Source of the DNA: a bacterium
Lineage (GTDB): Bacteria; Cyanobacteriota; Vampirovibrionia; Gastranaerophilales; Gastranaerophilaceae
Direction: 5' to 3'
NCBI GenBank assembly: GCA_017541465.1
Contig: JAFXYZ010000021.1
Location: forward strand, 1 to 64,000
DNA: 64,000 bases
The position numbers and the translations under genes were made by a program. The notes beneath the pieces are model-generated. The model was not told the origin of the DNA and made no database searches. It saw nothing but the letters and a program-made list of their open reading frames with translations. This document shows, piece after piece, positions 10,324 to 19,792 of the stretch (position 1 is the first letter of the stretch; every line of letters starts with the position of its first letter).

Positions 10324-10368
10324 ACTTCATAATCCCGATTATTACTTGTTATAATTATAGCTGAAAAA

Positions 10369-10377
10369 TGGTATAAT
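10369..10377 (+). promoter_or_regulatory. Extended -10 promoter TGGTATAAT
   Basis: TGGTATAAT lies 28 bases before the GTG start of the radical SAM/SPASM gene, in the 82-base divergent gap to nadE. Confidence 0.55.
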
Positions 10378-10405: not shown

Positions 10406-11458
10406 GTGAATTTTTTTGCGCAACTGTTTAATTTTGGGAATAAGAACAAGAAATTTATCTGCCCCGGTGCGTTTTCGCAGGTGTATATTTACTACGACGG
10501 GCGTGTTTTTCTTTGCCCCGACTGTTATATGTCCCCTGAAGCGCAGATAGGAAATCTGAACGAGCAGACTTTTGACGAGATTTGGAACTCTGAGCGGGCG
10601 GTTCTGATAAGAGAAAATGCGAAAAATATGATTTACAGTCACTGTGCTGTGCGTGAGTGCCATGTTAAAACCAATTATCATATAAGGGTTATGCCGTCAG
10701 AGGGTATTGATTTTTCGGTTAAACAGAGGAAATATCCGAAGATGGTCTGCGTTGGACCTGACTGGGAGTGTAATGCAAACTGTATTATGTGCCGTCCTTC
10801 ACTTTCCAGGTTGTCTGATGAGGAGCTCTCTAAGTTTAATGAAAAGATAGAAAAATGGTATCTGCCGATTTTAAAGGACGCAAAGGAATTAACCCTCAGC
10901 ACGACCTCTGATCCCTTCGGAAGCCGAAATACAAGGCTTTTGATGAAAAGAGCCTCTGAAAAATATCCGAAATTAAAGTTTAACATAATGACGAACGGGA
11001 TTTTGTGCGACAAATATAACTGTGAGCAGACAGGAATTTGGGACAGAATGGGAAGAATAATGTTCTCTGTTCACGCATCAAATCAAGAAGTCTATGATAA
11101 GGTCGTTAAAAACGGCAATTTTGAAAAGATGTGCGAGAATCTGAAACTTATGTCGGAATTGAAGTCAGAGGGCAAAATTAAGGCACTTTACTTGGGGTTT
11201 GTGATTTCATCAAAGAATTATCACGATATTCCTTCATTCTGTGAGTTTGCGAGGGTAAATAATGCGGTTGCACTCTTTTGGATGTGCAGAGATTGGGGTG
11301 GTAATCTGGCTAATTCCGATGAACAGCTGGAGGTCTGGAAGCGAGAACACCCGAAGTTTAAAGAACTTCAGAAGGTTTTGAGGAGTATTTCCTCTCTTGA
11401 TACTGATTATTCCTGCTTTAACCCTTATCTGAAATATATCAGAGATAATGATTTTTAA
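10406..11458 (+). CDS. Radical SAM protein with N-terminal SPASM-like cluster domain
   Basis: The start is GTG, eight bases behind AAGGG. The 350-residue protein has a cysteine-rich region first (C19, C37, C40, C80, C85) with the SPASM-like phrase YYDGRVFLCPDC and IGNLNEQTFDEIW. The radical SAM motif C122-x3-C126-x2-C129 (CNANCIMC) follows. In most SPASM enzymes the auxiliary-cluster domain comes after the barrel; here it comes first. Such enzymes modify peptides or proteins, but no precursor peptide is seen beside it. It stands alone between nadE and the CRISPR locus. Confidence 0.8.
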   Translation: MNFFAQLFNFGNKNKKFICPGAFSQVYIYYDGRVFLCPDCYMSPEAQIGNLNEQTFDEIWNSERAVLIRENAKNMIYSHCAVRECHVKTNYHIRVMPSEGIDFSVKQRKYPKMVCVGPDWECNANCIMCRPSLSRLSDEELSKFNEKIEKWYLPILKDAKELTLSTTSDPFGSRNTRLLMKRASEKYPKLKFNIMTNGILCDKYNCEQTGIWDRMGRIMFSVHASNQEVYDKVVKNGNFEKMCENLKLMSELKSEGKIKALYLGFVISSKNYHDIPSFCEFARVNNAVALFWMCRDWGGNLANSDEQLEVWKREHPKFKELQKVLRSISSLDTDYSCFNPYLKYIRDNDF

Positions 11459-11779: not shown

Positions 11780-14770
11780 ATGGAAAAAGTTTTTGCGTTT
11801 GATATGGGAAAAGCCAGTATTGGGTATTGTGCAAGGGAAGGCTTTAATATATTAGAACTTGGGTCTTTAATTATAGATAAAGACCATGCTGAAGTAATTT
11901 CAAACAGGGAAAGAAGAAGAACAAGAAAAACTCTTGAAGCACATAAAAAGAGAGAAGAATTTTTTGATAAATTATGGTTAGATTGTAGGTTGTCAGTATT
12001 AGAAAGAACGGACAAACGATTTAAAATCGAATTTTCAACAAAAGATGATGATACAATTTATAATTCAGCATTATTAAGAATTGCACTTTTGCAAAATATT
12101 CCTCTTAAAGATTGGCAGATATATAAAGCCATACATAGTGCTATTCAAAGAAGAGGGTATGATGCTGAAATTGCGTGGGCAAATGTTTCTTCCTCTGATG
12201 AAAAAGATAACCAAGAAAGAGTCAGTAAATATACACAAGATGAAACAGGCAAAGAATTAATTAATAATAATGAATATAAATATCCTTGTTATTATGATGC
12301 TTACCGTCTGGGGTTGTGGACTGAAGAAAATCCTGCAAAGTTAAATAGGTATATTCCGTTGACTAATGCCAACAAAGTGAGAACAACGGGTTTCGTTGCA
12401 CCTCGTTCATTTGTAGAAAAAGAATTAAGGCAATTGTATATAAATGCACAAAAACAATTACCTCAGTTGATGAAATTTCCCGTTGAATATTTTTTATATG
12501 GGCAATATGGTGCAGCATATGCAACTTTTAGAACATCTAATCAAGGACGCGAAGATAATTATGGTGTCTTAGGGCAAAAAATACCGAGATTTGATAATAG
12601 AATAATAGCCAAATGTAAATTATTGCCAAAACGAAATGTTTGTAAAGCGAATAATTTAGAAAATGTTACTTTTACTTTGCTAATGAAACTTAAAAATTTA
12701 AGATTTACTGATATACAAGGGAATAAATGGGCTTTAGATTATAGTGCGATATCCGATATTCATTCTAATTGGCTTGCAAAAGCGTATAAAGAGGGTGAAA
12801 TAAAACTTGATACAACAATAACTAAAAAAGAAATTGAAACTGTTATCGGGATAAAAATACAAGATAAAATCGAACCTATGAAAGCAAATATTTTAGGACG
12901 TTCAGCATTCTGTCGCCGTGCTTGTCAAATAATGAACAAAATAATTCTAGAGGGAATAAAAGAACCTATAAATATGGATATAACCGATTTTGTTGACCCT
13001 GAAAATACTTCAAATCCAATTACGGAAGGGGAGATTCGAGAAATGCTGTCAAAAATCGGAACTTGGGATAATTTATACATCCCTGATAATCGTTATGAAA
13101 TGTTGGAACTATCTTCTGACGACAGGCAGAAAACCGATTTGTTGATAGGTAAAATAACAAATCCTATTGTTAGAAATCGTTTACAAATTTTAAGAGATAA
13201 ACTTTTGGAAATGAAAGGGAAATACGGAACTCCTGATAAAGTTATTTTTGAGTTTATAAGAGAAGGTGCGGATAATTCATTATATGGAGCAATAAAAGCC
13301 CAAGATGAATTAAATAGAATGAAAGCAAATGAAAAAGAAAATGAAAAAATAGTTAAAAAACTTAAAGACAATGATGCATATTCGCCTACAAATTTTGATA
13401 AATTGAAACTTTTAGAAATGCAAGGTGGGAAATGTGTATATAGTGGAAAAAATATAGGAATAAGTGATTTCGACAAATGTGAAATAGACCATATTTTTCC
13501 TCGTACAATGGGAGGTAATGATGCTCTATATAATAAAGTTCTTTGTTATAGTATTGAAAATCAAAATAAAAAAGGTAGAACTCCTTATGAATGGTTATCC
13601 TCGGACAAAGATGAATGGGCAAAATATATTAAACGCTTGAGTGAAATTAAATCAAGTTTAGGAAAAAAGAAATTTGAACTTTTAACAAGTAAACCGGAAG
13701 ATTGTGCAAAATTAATTGAAAGTTATAATGGATTAGCAGAAACTGCGCAAATTTCCAAAGTTTCACAGCAACTTGCAGCGTTTATTTTTGGTTGGGGTAT
13801 GCAAACTAAGGATGATGAAAGACACTTGTTTACTAATAATGGTTCAACAACATCGGCTATTCGCAGACGATATGGACTTAATAAAATTCTTGGAGAGGAT
13901 ATTAAAAAGAATCGTGAAAATGATAAGCATCATGCACTTGATGCGATTTGTATAAGTTTTTCAAGGGATTTTAAATATGATGAAGAATCAGGAAAAGATG
14001 TTATAAAAGGCTTTACCTATGATTTCGTAAAAAATGAAATAGATAGATTGATTCCATATCCTTATTCAAATGATAAACCGTTTAAGGGGAATATAAGACC
14101 TAAAGAAACATATTACGGAAAAAGAAAAGTTAATGGGAAATATAAATTGACAGAACGGACAGAAATAACAGACATCAAGCGAAATAAAAAAGATGTTGAA
14201 AAAATAATTGATGAAGTAATAAAAAATGACTTACTTGATAAATTAAATCTAACGTCAGATGAATGGATAAATATGTTGCAAGATTATAAACATCCCAAGA
14301 AACAAACGAAAGTCAAAAAAGTTAGAACGTTAATAGATTGTAATGCAGAATTGACTTATGATGGTAATGGCAGAGAAAGATTTGATGTTTATGTAGATTT
14401 TGGAAATAAAGGAACAAAGGGGCAATTTAAACGCTCGAAAGGACACAAAGGACAAATTCTTTATTATGATAATAAAGGTTCAATTCGTGTAATGCCGATT
14501 TATGCAAATAAATCAACGCAAGAGGTTAAAGATAAACTTATTAATATGGGCTGCAAGTTATATCGTGGCGGAGAAATGTTCCATTCAGGTTGTCTTGTTG
14601 AAATACCAAACGATTTTAAAGCAGGTGCAAATACATATCCAAAAGGGACATATAAATTAAGGACAATAAAAAGTGGCGGGGAAGTAAAACTTGAGAATAA
14701 TGTTGGAATAGAAATAGTTTCAAGTGCAAAATATTTGACTAATGCAGAATTCTATAAGAGAAAAAATTAA
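11780..14770 (+). CDS. cas9: Type II-C CRISPR RNA-guided endonuclease Cas9
   Basis: At 996 residues this is a compact Cas9 close in size to the Campylobacter enzyme. RuvC-I has Asp8 (FAFDMGKASIGY), then an Arg-rich bridge helix (ERRRTRKTLEAHKKR, about 44-58). RuvC-II has Glu491 (VIFEFIRE) and RuvC-III has His718 and Asp721 (HHALDAICIS). The HNH domain has Asp570, His571 (EIDHIFPRT) and Asn594. All catalytic residues of both nuclease centres are present, so double-strand cleavage is expected. The C-terminal 200 residues would form the PAM-reading domain. Codon use is much more A/T-rich than in neighbouring housekeeping genes, which suggests acquisition by transfer. It is first of cas9-cas1-cas2, with no csn2 or cas4, which defines subtype II-C. 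Confidence 0.97.
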   Translation: MEKVFAFDMGKASIGYCAREGFNILELGSLIIDKDHAEVISNRERRRTRKTLEAHKKREEFFDKLWLDCRLSVLERTDKRFKIEFSTKDDDTIYNSALLRIALLQNIPLKDWQIYKAIHSAIQRRGYDAEIAWANVSSSDEKDNQERVSKYTQDETGKELINNNEYKYPCYYDAYRLGLWTEENPAKLNRYIPLTNANKVRTTGFVAPRSFVEKELRQLYINAQKQLPQLMKFPVEYFLYGQYGAAYATFRTSNQGREDNYGVLGQKIPRFDNRIIAKCKLLPKRNVCKANNLENVTFTLLMKLKNLRFTDIQGNKWALDYSAISDIHSNWLAKAYKEGEIKLDTTITKKEIETVIGIKIQDKIEPMKANILGRSAFCRRACQIMNKIILEGIKEPINMDITDFVDPENTSNPITEGEIREMLSKIGTWDNLYIPDNRYEMLELSSDDRQKTDLLIGKITNPIVRNRLQILRDKLLEMKGKYGTPDKVIFEFIREGADNSLYGAIKAQDELNRMKANEKENEKIVKKLKDNDAYSPTNFDKLKLLEMQGGKCVYSGKNIGISDFDKCEIDHIFPRTMGGNDALYNKVLCYSIENQNKKGRTPYEWLSSDKDEWAKYIKRLSEIKSSLGKKKFELLTSKPEDCAKLIESYNGLAETAQISKVSQQLAAFIFGWGMQTKDDERHLFTNNGSTTSAIRRRYGLNKILGEDIKKNRENDKHHALDAICISFSRDFKYDEESGKDVIKGFTYDFVKNEIDRLIPYPYSNDKPFKGNIRPKETYYGKRKVNGKYKLTERTEITDIKRNKKDVEKIIDEVIKNDLLDKLNLTSDEWINMLQDYKHPKKQTKVKKVRTLIDCNAELTYDGNGRERFDVYVDFGNKGTKGQFKRSKGHKGQILYYDNKGSIRVMPIYANKSTQEVKDKLINMGCKLYRGGEMFHSGCLVEIPNDFKAGANTYPKGTYKLRTIKSGGEVKLENNVGIEIVSSAKYLTNAEFYKRKN

Positions 14771-14796: not shown

Positions 14797-15756
14797 ATGG
14801 ATAATATGAGTTATCATATTATCCATATTACAAAGCCGACAAGTTATATTTTAGTTGAAAAAGGTCTTTTATTTTGCAATGTTAAGAAAACAGGTGAAAT
14901 TTTTAAAATTGCTCTTGATGATATAAAAGCAGTTATTGTTTGTACGCCTGCCGTGTCTTTTTCAAATAATGCTATTGCATCACTTTTGTCTAGGAATGTT
15001 GTTATTCAGCACTGTGATAAAATGTTTCAGCCGATAGGGTGGAGTGTGCCTCTTTCAAGGATTGTTAAAACAAATGTTTTTAAAAATCAAATCTCGAAAA
15101 ATGACGATTTTACAAATGAACTTTGGAAGAAAATAATAAGGCAAAAGGCTTTGAATCAAGCCGTCGTTCTTGATATTATGAACGTTGGTCATCATAAACT
15201 GTATAATTTGATTAATAAAACTTTGATGAGTGAAGCGAATATTGCAAAACAATATTGGGCAGACTATTTTTCTTGTTTATCCGAACCGATGAAAAGAGAA
15301 CACAAAAATGCTCAATCTTTTGAAAATGCTTGTTTAAATTATGGCTATGCGGTCTTGAAAACTTTGATTTACCGTTCGATTTTGATTCACGGGCTTTTGC
15401 CTAATTTAGGGATAAAACATACAAGCAACTATAAAACAACACCTCTTGTTTATGATTTAACAGAACCATTCAGGGCTTTCGTCGATTTTTATTTGTATCG
15501 GTTTTCAAGAGAGTATGATGTTGAATTTGAAAATCAGGAAATTCAAGAATGGATAAAATATATTCCCTCTTGCTTTAAGAATTATAGGCTGGAATATAAA
15601 TCGAATAGTTATAAAATTGTAGATATAATAGATATTTATATTGAAGAAATCGCTAGGGCGTTTTCAAAGTTTGATTGCTCCGATATATTTTTGCCTGATT
15701 TAAACGAACAATGTTTGGATAAAGATACACAAAGAAACAGAGAATATGAGGAGTAA
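14797..15756 (+). CDS. cas1: CRISPR-associated integrase Cas1
   Basis: The 319-residue protein carries the type II Cas1 signature: Glu in MSEANIAKQYW, His in LLPNLGIKH and the PLVYDLTEPFRAFVD block. These supply the metal-binding Glu/His/Glu-type site used to insert new spacers. It follows cas9 by 26 bases and overlaps cas2. The ribosome-binding site is weak; an ATG at 14806 (MSYHIIH) is an alternative start. Confidence 0.95.
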   Translation: MDNMSYHIIHITKPTSYILVEKGLLFCNVKKTGEIFKIALDDIKAVIVCTPAVSFSNNAIASLLSRNVVIQHCDKMFQPIGWSVPLSRIVKTNVFKNQISKNDDFTNELWKKIIRQKALNQAVVLDIMNVGHHKLYNLINKTLMSEANIAKQYWADYFSCLSEPMKREHKNAQSFENACLNYGYAVLKTLIYRSILIHGLLPNLGIKHTSNYKTTPLVYDLTEPFRAFVDFYLYRFSREYDVEFENQEIQEWIKYIPSCFKNYRLEYKSNSYKIVDIIDIYIEEIARAFSKFDCSDIFLPDLNEQCLDKDTQRNREYEE

Positions 15757-15763
15757 ATATCGC

Positions 15764-16093
15764 ATGGGTTGGCTATTTGTGTGTTTCGATTTGCCTGTTG
15801 AAGACAAAGAAGAAAGAAGACTTGCTGCCAACTTTAGAAAAGACTTGTTAAATCTTGGATATTTCATGCTCCAAAATTCAATATATGTTCGTTCGTGTGT
15901 AACCTACGAAAAAACGGATAAATTCATAAAAAATCTTAAAGATATTGCGCCTGCAACGGGAAGTATTAATATTTTTTTTCTTACAGACAAACAATGGAGT
16001 TTATCGGTTTGTATAGAAAAAATAAATTATAAAAACTCAAAATATATACAAAAAATTGGCGAAAATGCACCAAAACAAATGACTTTTTGGTAG
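15764..16093 (+). CDS. cas2: CRISPR-associated protein Cas2
   Basis: The product starts MGWLFVCFDLPV and has the ER-x-A-x-x-FRK-x-L-x-x-x-G block of type II Cas2, followed by the NSIYVR strand. It is the dimer that bridges Cas1 in spacer integration. ATG 15764 is chosen because AGGAG (15749-15753) lies ten bases before it; the ATG at 15746 lies upstream of that ribosome-binding site and would give 115 residues. Either way the frame is close to or overlaps the cas1 end, implying coupling. Confidence 0.93.
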   Translation: MGWLFVCFDLPVEDKEERRLAANFRKDLLNLGYFMLQNSIYVRSCVTYEKTDKFIKNLKDIAPATGSINIFFLTDKQWSLSVCIEKINYKNSKYIQKIGENAPKQMTFW

Positions 16094-16094
16094 T

Positions 16095-16230
16095 TCTATG
16101 TTACCATGAAGTCATGGATATTAAATTTTTAAATGGTTTAGAGAATGAGATTCAAACGTTTACTTGCAGAGGTTTAAACTATTCTCTTGTCAATTATGAT
16201 TGGCCTCTTAACTTAAAATATGTTTTCCGT
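16095..16230 (-). ncRNA. Candidate tracrRNA of the type II-C system
   Basis: Read on the minus strand, 16225-16192 is an anti-repeat. It can pair with the minus-strand crRNA repeat over 18 consecutive base pairs (one G-U), then after a small bulge and internal loop over AATCATAA. The next bases form AGAG...CTCT followed by GC, like the Campylobacter nexus hairpin, and an AGAGAAT / ATTCTCT longer pairing encloses it. A -10 TATAAT (16241-16236 minus) would start transcription near 16230; the outermost repeat's own TATAAT could also do so. A CCATGA/TCATGG hairpin (16104-16117) near the cas2 stop may end it. The exact 3' end is uncertain. Confidence 0.75.
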
Positions 16231-16268
16231 ATTCTATTATATATCATTTTATATTTTTTGTATATCCT

Positions 16269-17490
16269 ATTATAACATATTTTAAATTAAGGGGAAATCA
16301 AAACACATCTAATAATTGATTAATCGTATTCTCGATTATAACATATTTTAAATTAAGGGGAAATCAAAACTATATATATAATACCACTTAATTTTAATTT
16401 ATTATAACATATTTTAAATTAAGGGGAAATCAAAACGTATGGTTTCCTTTAAGAATATAGGTACTAATTATAACATATTTTAAATTAAGGGGAAATCAAA
16501 ACGAAACCATAATCTAGCTGTTACAAAATCGATTATAACATATTTTAAATTAAGGGGAAATCAAAACTACGACTTAAAGCACCAACATCACCTAGCAATT
16601 ATAACATATTTTAAATTAAGGGGAAATCAAAACTCATCTGAAGGAAAAAGCAAGAAGTTTTTCATTATAACATATTTTAAATTAAGGGGAAATCAAAACT
16701 CTTTGAATGTTTACTATAACATTTGACTTATTATAACATATTTTAAATTAAGGGGAAATCAAAACTTGATATTGAGGTTCTACTGATATACAAGATTATA
16801 ACATATTTTAAATTAAGGGGAAATCAAAACTTATTTTATCTCTTTTAATGTACTTCCATGATTATAACATATTTTAAATTAAGGGGAAATCAAAACCAAG
16901 AACAATATACGGGTGAATCCAAATATAATTATAACATATTTTAAATTAAGGGGAAATCAAAACAGAGAAAACAAACAAAGAAATATCAGAAGAATTATAA
17001 CATATTTTAAATTAAGGGGAAATCAAAACACTACAACAGGCACAAGCACAATAACAGGGATTATAACATATTTTAAATTAAGGGGAAATCAAAACAAAGT
17101 CTAATCTTTCTATTCTTTTATTTTTATTATAACATATTTTAAATTAAGGGGAAATCAAAACTGAGTGAAGGCAAGAAAAAAAGGTGGTAAAATTATAACA
17201 TATTTTAAATTAAGGGGAAATCAAAACCTCAGAGCGCAGCCATTCATTCAAAAGTTATTATAACATATTTTAAATTAAGGGGAAATCAAAACCGTTTTGC
17301 GCAAGGTCCTGAATAAGAGCATATTATAACATATTTTAAATTAAGGGGAAATCAAAACTAATTCCGACGAACTGTTTAACGGCGTCAAATTATAACATAT
17401 TTTAAATTAAGGGGAAATCAAAACGTTCTGCTTGTGCTTGTTGTTTTGCTATTTATTATAACATATTTTAAATTAAGGGGAAATCAAAAC
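16269..17490 (-). CRISPR. CRISPR array, 19 identical 36-nt repeats, 18 spacers
   Basis: On the plus strand each repeat starts ATTATAACATATTTT and ends GGGGAAATCAAAAC. Repeats start at 16269, 16335, 16401, 16467, 16532, 16598, 16664, 16730, 16795, 16861, 16928, 16994, 17060, 17126, 17192, 17257, 17323, 17389 and 17455. Spacers are 29-31 bases, mostly 30. All repeats including both end copies appear identical. The functional orientation is inferred to be minus: the repeat then begins GTTTTGATTT as in Campylobacter, ends in the promoter TGTTATAAT, and matches the tracrRNA candidate. By eye no spacer matches another part of the window. Confidence 0.98.
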
Positions 17491-17550: not shown

Positions 17551-17555
17551 AACAA

Positions 17556-17575
17556 CGGCAGGCATTCGCCTGCCG
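17556..17575 (-). terminator. Strong hairpin, probable terminator of the secreted-protein gene
   Basis: A perfect eight-base-pair stem CGGCAGGC / GCCTGCCG with a four-base loop. On the minus strand it is followed by TTGTTGTATT. It lies about 30 bases after the stop of the minus-strand gene at 17605 and separates that gene from the CRISPR leader. Confidence 0.6.
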
Positions 17576-17604
17576 CTTCTCAATATCGTACAATAAAAAA
17601 TTAT

Positions 17605-18054
17605 TTATTCTTCAATATTCTGAATTTCTTTGAGCTGTGGATATTCTTTAAAGAGCTGGGCTTCTAATTGTTTGACGCACATATCTCTTTCTTCGCTCTT
17701 TCCGAACTGGGTGTCAACGGAATAGGATTTTGCACTTTCCGTTACAATAAACCTTGCGCTGCAAGAGGCTGTTCCATATTTCATTGTCAGTGTCTGATAC
17801 GGATGGCATTTGCCGTTTTGGTAAGCCTGAAGTCCAGAATCATAGGCTAACTTCTCCTGTTGTGCATTCAGCTGGCATGACATATAAGGAAGAGTTAAGT
17901 CCTTCAGATGCTCGCAATTTGCCGTAGTTCCTTTGGCATCAGGGTTGAAATCACCTGTGTAGTTGTCGCTTGAACAAAAATAAGTTTCTGCAATCGCTTG
18001 AGAAAAACCAACAAGCGAGGCAATCAAAAATGCGCTTAAAAATACTTTTTTCAT
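17605..18054 (-). CDS. Secreted Cys-containing protein, unknown function
   Basis: The 149-residue protein has a clear signal peptide (MKKVFLSAFLIASLVGFSQA, cleavage near AIA-ET) and six cysteines in the mature part, so a disulfide-bonded periplasmic or exported protein is likely. The ATG at 18054 follows GGGGGAA by about six bases, so the longer frame starting at 18102 is not used. It lies 19 bases after the adenine deaminase stop and is probably co-transcribed. No family recognised. Confidence 0.75.
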   Translation of the reverse strand: MKKVFLSAFLIASLVGFSQAIAETYFCSSDNYTGDFNPDAKGTTANCEHLKDLTLPYMSCQLNAQQEKLAYDSGLQAYQNGKCHPYQTLTMKYGTASCSARFIVTESAKSYSVDTQFGKSEERDMCVKQLEAQLFKEYPQLKEIQNIEE

Positions 18055-18073
18055 AAATATTCCCCCTTTTTTA

Positions 18074-19792
18074 TTATTTGGTTGTATCAAAAATATCAAC
18101 AAATTCTAACGCATCAACATCAAACAAGCCTTTATCCGTTATTTTCAGACTCGGTATAACCGACAAAGAAAGAAATGCCATTGTCATAAACGGGTCGTCA
18201 AGTTCGCAACCCAACTGCTTTACTCCGTTTTTGAGTTCATCGCATTCTTTTAAAACAGTTTCAAACGGTTTATCTGACATCAGACCTGCAATCGGCAGCG
18301 GCAATATAGAGATGACTTTTCCCTTGTCAACAACAACTTTTCCGCCCTGCGATTTCTCAAGTTCTATTGCTGCCGCTTTCATATCGGCATCATTTGTTCC
18401 GATTACAATCATATTATGTGAATCGTGCGCAACTGTCGAGGCTATCGCTCCCGATTTTAACCCGAAACCCTTAATAAACCCTTTTCCTATATTGCCTGTC
18501 GCTCTGTGTCTCTCAAACACCATTATCTTTAATATGTCATTTTCGATATTCACTTCGGCAAAATTATTCTTAACCTTTATTTTGGAAATGACTTTTTTGG
18601 TCAAAAGAGTGCCTGGGATAATCTCTATAACTTTTACCGTGTCTGATTTTGCAGGAATTTTGAAATCCTCATCCTCTATCCACTTAACATTAACCGAACC
18701 TCTCAGTTTGGGAATTTCATTTTTATCAATATTAACAATTAATTCACCGTTCTTTGCAACGATTTCGCCGTTTTTAATAACAAGTTTGGGTTTGAAATCT
18801 TTTAAATTGTCAAAAACAAGCAAATCGGCACGATATCCCGGGGCTATCGCACCTAAATCGTTTAATCCGAAATATTCTGCCGTATTTATAGTTGCTGCTT
18901 TGATTGCAGTTATCGGATTAACATCTGCTGCCACGCATTGTCTTATCATATCGTTAATATGCCCTTTAAGGTCGTTTGGATGTCTGTCATCCGTTACGAA
19001 AATACAACGTCTTGTGTTTTTCCCTTTCAATATCGGTATAAGCGACTGTAAATCTTTTGCGGCGGAACCTTCCCTTATCATAATATACATTCCGAGGTTG
19101 AGTTTCTCTGCTGCCTCTTTCGCTATTGTACATTCATGGTCAGACATTACCCCTGCCGCAATATAGCCGCATAACTCCTTCCCTCTTAAACCCGGAGCGT
19201 GGCCGTCTATTTTTTTATTCTTCAATTTTCCTATTCTGATTTTTGAAAGAACAGAATTTTTGCAATTTAATACTTCGGGAAAATTCATTACTTCAGCCAT
19301 GCCTAAAACAGTTTCATCATCAATTAACATTGATAAATCATGACTTGCAAGTTCAAATCCGGAGGTTTCATAGTCGGTTGCGGGTACGCAGGTGGGCAGC
19401 ATAAAATAAACCTGAAGCGGTAAATTCCTGCAAGCCTCCCTCATAAAACTTATGCCGTGCAGTCCGAATACATTTGCAATTTCGTGAGGGTCTGCGATAA
19501 CAGTAAGTGTACCTTCGGGAACAACTGCTTTTGCAAATTCTTTTGGAACACACATTGAACTTTCTATATGAACGTGTCCGTCAATGAAGGCGGGAGTAAC
19601 ATAAGCACCGTTTAAATCAATCTCTTTATTTCCTTCATATCCCTTTCCGATACCTGCTATTTTTCCGTTATAAACAGCAATATCGGTGTTTTGAATTTCA
19701 TCATTAAAAACATTTACAAGATTTGTGTTTTTGATAACAAAATCGGCTTTTTCTTCGCCAATGGCAACTTTGATTAACTTTATGGTGTCCAT
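18074..19792 (-). CDS. ade: Adenine deaminase
   Basis: The 572-residue amidohydrolase converts adenine to hypoxanthine and ammonia for purine salvage. The metal-binding motif HVHIESSM (His73, His75), DPHEIANVFG, the HAPGLRG stretch and the C-terminal ATVAHDSHN motif match the Ade family at normal length. It is probably first in a short operon with the small secreted protein. A purine-salvage role fits with purA, purB and prs elsewhere in the window. Confidence 0.95.
   Translation of the reverse strand: MDTIKLIKVAIGEEKADFVIKNTNLVNVFNDEIQNTDIAVYNGKIAGIGKGYEGNKEIDLNGAYVTPAFIDGHVHIESSMCVPKEFAKAVVPEGTLTVIADPHEIANVFGLHGISFMREACRNLPLQVYFMLPTCVPATDYETSGFELASHDLSMLIDDETVLGMAEVMNFPEVLNCKNSVLSKIRIGKLKNKKIDGHAPGLRGKELCGYIAAGVMSDHECTIAKEAAEKLNLGMYIMIREGSAAKDLQSLIPILKGKNTRRCIFVTDDRHPNDLKGHINDMIRQCVAADVNPITAIKAATINTAEYFGLNDLGAIAPGYRADLLVFDNLKDFKPKLVIKNGEIVAKNGELIVNIDKNEIPKLRGSVNVKWIEDEDFKIPAKSDTVKVIEIIPGTLLTKKVISKIKVKNNFAEVNIENDILKIMVFERHRATGNIGKGFIKGFGLKSGAIASTVAHDSHNMIVIGTNDADMKAAAIELEKSQGGKVVVDKGKVISILPLPIAGLMSDKPFETVLKECDELKNGVKQLGCELDDPFMTMAFLSLSVIPSLKITDKGLFDVDALEFVDIFDTTK

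Follow-up and report, generated by a model that had tools for sequence, protein, structure and literature searches.

The window analysed here, a 64,000-nucleotide stretch of the genome of a member of the Gastranaerophilales (Vampirovibrionia), holds a compact CRISPR-Cas locus in which an array read from the minus strand faces a short run of plus-strand cas genes (Table 1). Between position 11780 and the array, the only cas genes are cas9, cas1, and cas2, without csn2 or cas4, and a search for Cas4 returned no match in the genome. The repeat reads GTTTTGATTTCCCCTTAATTTAAAATATGTTATAAT on the minus strand in all 19 copies of the 36-mer, and the outermost repeat of the array is intact, with no erosion. 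A tracrRNA gene with its own promoter, absent from the initial annotation of this DNA, lies just past the last repeat.

Table 1. Features of the CRISPR-Cas locus, with positions counted from the first letter of the window.
Feature	Position	Strand	Remarks
cas9, 996 aa	11780..14770	+	NCBIfam NF049971 (Cas9d) 992.7 bits, cut-off 375; TIGR01865 247.9 bits; HNH_4
cas1, type II	14797..15756	+	TIGR03639
cas2	15746..16093	+	profile matches
Putative tracrRNA	16100..16230	-	predicted start just after the -10, predicted ends; terminator-like hairpin with T run at 16073-16056
tracrRNA anti-repeat region	16192..16224	-	pairs with repeat positions 1-31; between array and cas2
tracrRNA promoter, TATACA - 17 nt - TATAAT	16236..16264	-	same arrangement in 18 compared loci
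Conserved flank AGGATATAC	16260..16268	-	directly 3' of the last repeat; proposed leader anchor on the integration side
CRISPR array	16269..17490	-	19 identical 36-nt repeats, 18 spacers of 29-31 nt; crRNA strand minus, based on the anti-repeat and the convergent layout
Extended -10 TGTTATAAT at the 3' end of the last (cas2-side) repeat	16269..16277	-	read from sequence; transcription from it would run into the tracrRNA region
Extended -10 TGTTATAAT of the first (outermost) repeat	17455..17463	-	the 17 repeats between carry the same box
GC-rich terminator-like hairpin	17554..17577	-	upstream of the array, between a minus-strand operon and the first repeat

Named relatives of this Cas9 include one from a goat-rumen bacterium (73% identity) and others from metagenome-assembled genomes of Candidatus Gastranaerophilales (56-57%). 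Type II-D (Cas9d) systems have been described with an adaptation module that includes cas4 (PMC12669027) and with Zn-ribbon motifs (PMC9755519); here the Cas9d profile is matched, but cas4 is missing and the 996-aa protein contains no CxxC motif. In phmmer comparisons, full-length II-C-type Cas9 structures scored 92 bits, against 47 bits for 747-aa HNH nuclease structures. The locus is treated below under the II-C way of working, with the subtype itself not fixed and Cas9d used as the NCBIfam label. NF049971 is here matched by a Cas9 with neither a CxxC motif nor a cas4 partner, and the label may extend beyond type II-D.

The minus strand is the crRNA strand, with the array running towards the cas genes, because the anti-repeat is encoded on the minus strand and changes in the repeat:anti-repeat duplex preserve its pairs. 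Across 23 loci, compensatory changes are found at 21 repeat positions, including the N of TGN, and in every Cas9d-type locus compared, the array runs convergently towards cas9. Five spacer cores (21-23 nt), searched for protospacers that would indicate the PAM and the orientation, had no exact match in viral_contigs, and spacers matched the DNA of the host and its relatives only over short, uninformative stretches (15 nt, with 24 nt at 92% in L088).

At the border between repeat and spacer, every minus-strand repeat ends exactly in TGTTATAAT (19/19), and the last nine repeat bases, TATGTTATAAT, have the form TGnTATAAT in every copy, which confirms the extended -10 box that the initial annotation had placed at the minus-strand end of each repeat. 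The window contains TGNTATAAT 31 times, against 3.85 expected from dinucleotide shuffles (largest shuffled count 11), though 19 of the 31 are one repeated sequence; counted fairly, there are 12 sites outside the array and a single repeat. The 19 repeats are one repeat copied 19 times and were therefore not treated as independent observations. The box count is weak by itself, and it is comparative evidence, itself drawn from sequence, that shows the repeat box not to be a product of chance. The three other occurrences of TGnTATAAT cited originally, at 135-143, 472-480, and 10369-10377, are all real, and they are joined by one at 10347-10355 (TGTTATAAT, the same form as in the repeat) and by eight others. 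TGTGCTATAATTTT occurs twice on the plus strand, at 135-143 and 472-480, about 340 nt apart. Also on the plus strand, at 10347-10377, two TGnTATAAT boxes 22 nt apart lie just 5' of a radical SAM/SPASM gene that starts at 10406.

Use of this box by the host was gauged by a rough, ORF-based count in 318 kb of the 2.1-Mb draft genome, in which TATAAT lies within 150 nt upstream of ORFs 80 times in sense and 25 times in antisense orientation, and TGnTATAAT 11 times and once, respectively. The suggestion that the host polymerase probably accepts TGnTATAAT is supported by this bias.

Relatives whose repeat middles have been rewritten retain an end of the form TG-N-TA(T/C)AAT, in which N varies (T, A, G). 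Their repeats end in TGTGATATAAT (L065 and L066), GTGTTACAAT (L069), TTGGTATAAT (L082), TTTGATATAAT (L083), and TCTGATATAAT (L096). L065 and L066 are two separate Cas9d-type loci of one genome (G088), with differing repeat middles and a shared TGTGATATAAT end. TG at the repeat end is not universal among the repeats compared. It is missing in L059 (AGT) and L063 (TAT), each of which is short of one TG base, and L086-type repeats, which belong to another Cas9 branch in the same hosts, end in TTGTATAAT, with TTG in place of TG. At an Elusimicrobia locus with 33% Cas9 identity (L101:6549-8633, partly masked), the repeats end in TTTCAAAAT (CAAAAT), without a good -10.

In many relatives, a decayed repeat copy lies upstream of the first full repeat, at a distance of one spacer (28-32 nt). 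Among 35 unique arrays with upstream sequence, the 3' half of this outermost copy is recognisable in 21, a half being scored at a threshold of at least 14/18 matches (chance 0.0006). The 3' half alone survives in 14 arrays, both halves survive in 7, and the 5' half alone in none (two-sided binomial p = 1.2e-4). As a per-position profile selected on the whole 3' half would be biased, copies were selected on positions 19-27 only, and identity in the outer repeats is 0.95 at positions 28-36 versus 0.57 at positions 10-18. In L061, L072, and L077, positions 19-36 are nearly perfect and the remainder is random. Survival of the 3' half alone is what promoter function predicts, because the outermost copy has only to start the first crRNA, for which its 5' half is not needed. 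The possibility of a -35 element within the repeat was discarded, since the outer repeats do not preserve the slot that lies 17 nt before TATAAT, and a -35/-10 scan returned no site within the repeats that ended in the TGTTATAAT box.

The same decay has been read differently. In type II-C arrays, the first 15 nt of the outermost repeat hold most of its mutations, and silencing of an extraneous crRNA (ecrRNA) has been suggested as the reason (PMC12080349), so that outer repeats might lose their first 15-18 nt to this end while the 3' half merely lags in decay. This account is unlikely: it explains the loss of the 5' half, but not the nearly perfect positions 19-36 of L061, L072, and L077, and it does not exclude retention of a promoter, which was invoked in the same study.

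The two ends of the array differ in their conservation. Of 25 Cas9d-type loci compared, 20 have AGGATATAC immediately after the last repeat, L082 with its unrelated repeat middle among them. The motif holds the same place as in the window in 19 relatives, and it is conserved on the cas2 side only, the upstream flank of the array not being conserved in the 25 loci. The tracrRNA promoter overlaps this flank in 18 loci, and the motif may be an integration anchor that also provides the tracrRNA -35. Its position at the downstream (cas2) end suggests that spacers probably enter there, and acquisition at the cas2 side has been reported for II-C systems (PMC12638026, PMC8092290). The initial annotation had named a single primary start in the leader as the observation that would speak against repeat-borne promoters, and so presumed a leader upstream of transcription, but the conserved leader-like flank sits downstream. 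Because that flank is at the cas2 side, an upstream leader promoter is not expected.

Transcription of the array as one long precursor from a promoter 5' of the first repeat is difficult to sustain. Such a promoter could be sought in the AT-rich upstream stretch, for example at a TATAAT 41 nt before the first repeat, and in a window of 37% GC the repeat end might resemble a -10 through AT-richness. The repeat end is conserved among relatives, however, whereas the upstream flank is not; the -10 form is kept in more GC-rich repeats (L082, L083, L088); promoter-only outer repeats would not be predicted; and the GC-rich terminator-like hairpin stands upstream, all of which make a single precursor very improbable. 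By analogy with other type II-C arrays (PMC12080349), the hairpin may insulate the array from the adjoining minus-strand operon. Between the array and an adenine deaminase gene lies a minus-strand ORF of 165 aa (17605-18102) that has no Pfam or NCBIfam family match.

Repeat position 29 is G wherever it is paired, with a tracrRNA partner that is C in 7 loci and U in 12, and since this partner drifts between C and U, the conservation of G29 goes beyond pairing alone. Positions 31-33 show no covariation, and positions 34-36 are unpaired. With N covarying with the tracrRNA and G fixed opposite a drifting partner, selection at these bases is therefore on the repeat DNA and not on the duplex only. 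That the repeat 3' end is conserved for Cas1-Cas2 integration or tracrRNA pairing instead of transcription might be argued from its contact with the probable integration-side flank, from the extension of the duplex into positions 26-33, and from a terminal AAT that could be an integrase preference, but this is the least credible of the alternatives, as pairing does not explain the fixed G29 or the unpaired 34-36, integration at the opposite end leaves an oldest repeat reduced to its 3' half unexplained, and an internal TG set off by a free base is typical of polymerase recognition and not of an end motif.

Taken as a whole, the evidence is best explained by a repeat-borne extended -10 promoter in every repeat of this Gastranaerophilales cas9-cas1-cas2 locus, a reading that we regard as highly probable. 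The last nine bases of each repeat would constitute a sigma-70 extended -10 promoter, from which RNA polymerase would start on the minus strand, some 6-8 nt into each spacer, giving a short crRNA precursor composed of a guide of perhaps 22-24 nt and the next repeat. That repeat would pair with the tracrRNA encoded just past the last repeat, and the crRNA 3' end would be formed by RNase III, or by read-through and trimming. New spacers would enter at the cas2/tracrRNA end, at AGGATATAC, and the promoter would be copied with the repeat at each acquisition, so that an upstream leader promoter would be unnecessary. The original proposal of one promoter per spacer on the minus strand is well supported by conservation, by the promoter-only outer repeats, and by host promoter use, while the independent transcription of each spacer is a prediction that goes a step further. 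More tentatively, and with less than even confidence, the flank AGGATATACA could be both the site of spacer addition by Cas1-Cas2 and the -35 region of the tracrRNA, such that each acquisition would insert a fresh crRNA promoter and leave the tracrRNA promoter unmoved, and erosion of the oldest repeat would leave a bare extended -10, from which one crRNA but no extraneous one would be made.

The comparison with Campylobacter jejuni is close. In this type II-C system, individual repeat promoters were recognised from starts mapped by dRNA-seq (Dugar et al., 2013, PMC3656092); as here, a -10 box (there GGTAAAAT) ends every repeat, the tracrRNA lies downstream of the array, and the cas genes are cas9, cas1, and cas2 only. 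Starts inside each spacer are mapped in C. jejuni and predicted here. The differences are the consensus TGnTATAAT at the present locus and a Cas9 from another branch. C. jejuni relies on RNase III to make the 3' cut even though its repeats carry such promoters (PMC3656092); the Gastranaerophilales host has an RNase III gene match above the cut-off, near a contig end, and the repeat:tracrRNA duplex is long. In N. meningitidis type II-C, each repeat has a functional promoter with one crRNA start per spacer and RNase III was shown to be dispensable (Zhang et al., 2013, as cited in PMC8616872, PMC5006608, PMC12638026). The present locus shares the repeat-embedded promoters, as predicted from sequence, the dispensability of RNase III being a Neisseria result.

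A survey of 132 type II loci likewise gives a sigma-70 gnTAnaaT at the II-C repeat 3' end, a convergent array, and a degenerate proximal repeat (PMC4607530), matching the -10 at the repeat 3' end and the convergent array described here and the decayed outer repeat of the relatives; the passages of it consulted describe neither Gastranaerophilales hosts nor promoter-only halves. A study of extra repeats in type II-C suggested retention of the outermost-repeat promoter and insulation of arrays by upstream terminators (PMC12080349), with a search that required >70% similarity for added repeats, whereas the eroded copies described here are often near random in their 5' half. Promoter-only outer repeats, together with a fixed base opposite a drifting tracrRNA partner, provide a test by which selection for transcription can be told apart from selection for pairing, and the same test could predict the direction of transcription and the acquisition end in any type II array. 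Repeat promoters are thus of a kind already known from type II-C (PMC3656092, PMC4607530, PMC8616872). On the sequences compared, three things are new: the host group, the branch of Cas9 labelled Cas9d by NCBIfam, and outer repeats eroded so strongly that the promoter half alone is left. The locus extends repeat-embedded crRNA promoters to uncultured gut Vampirovibrionia and to this branch of Cas9.
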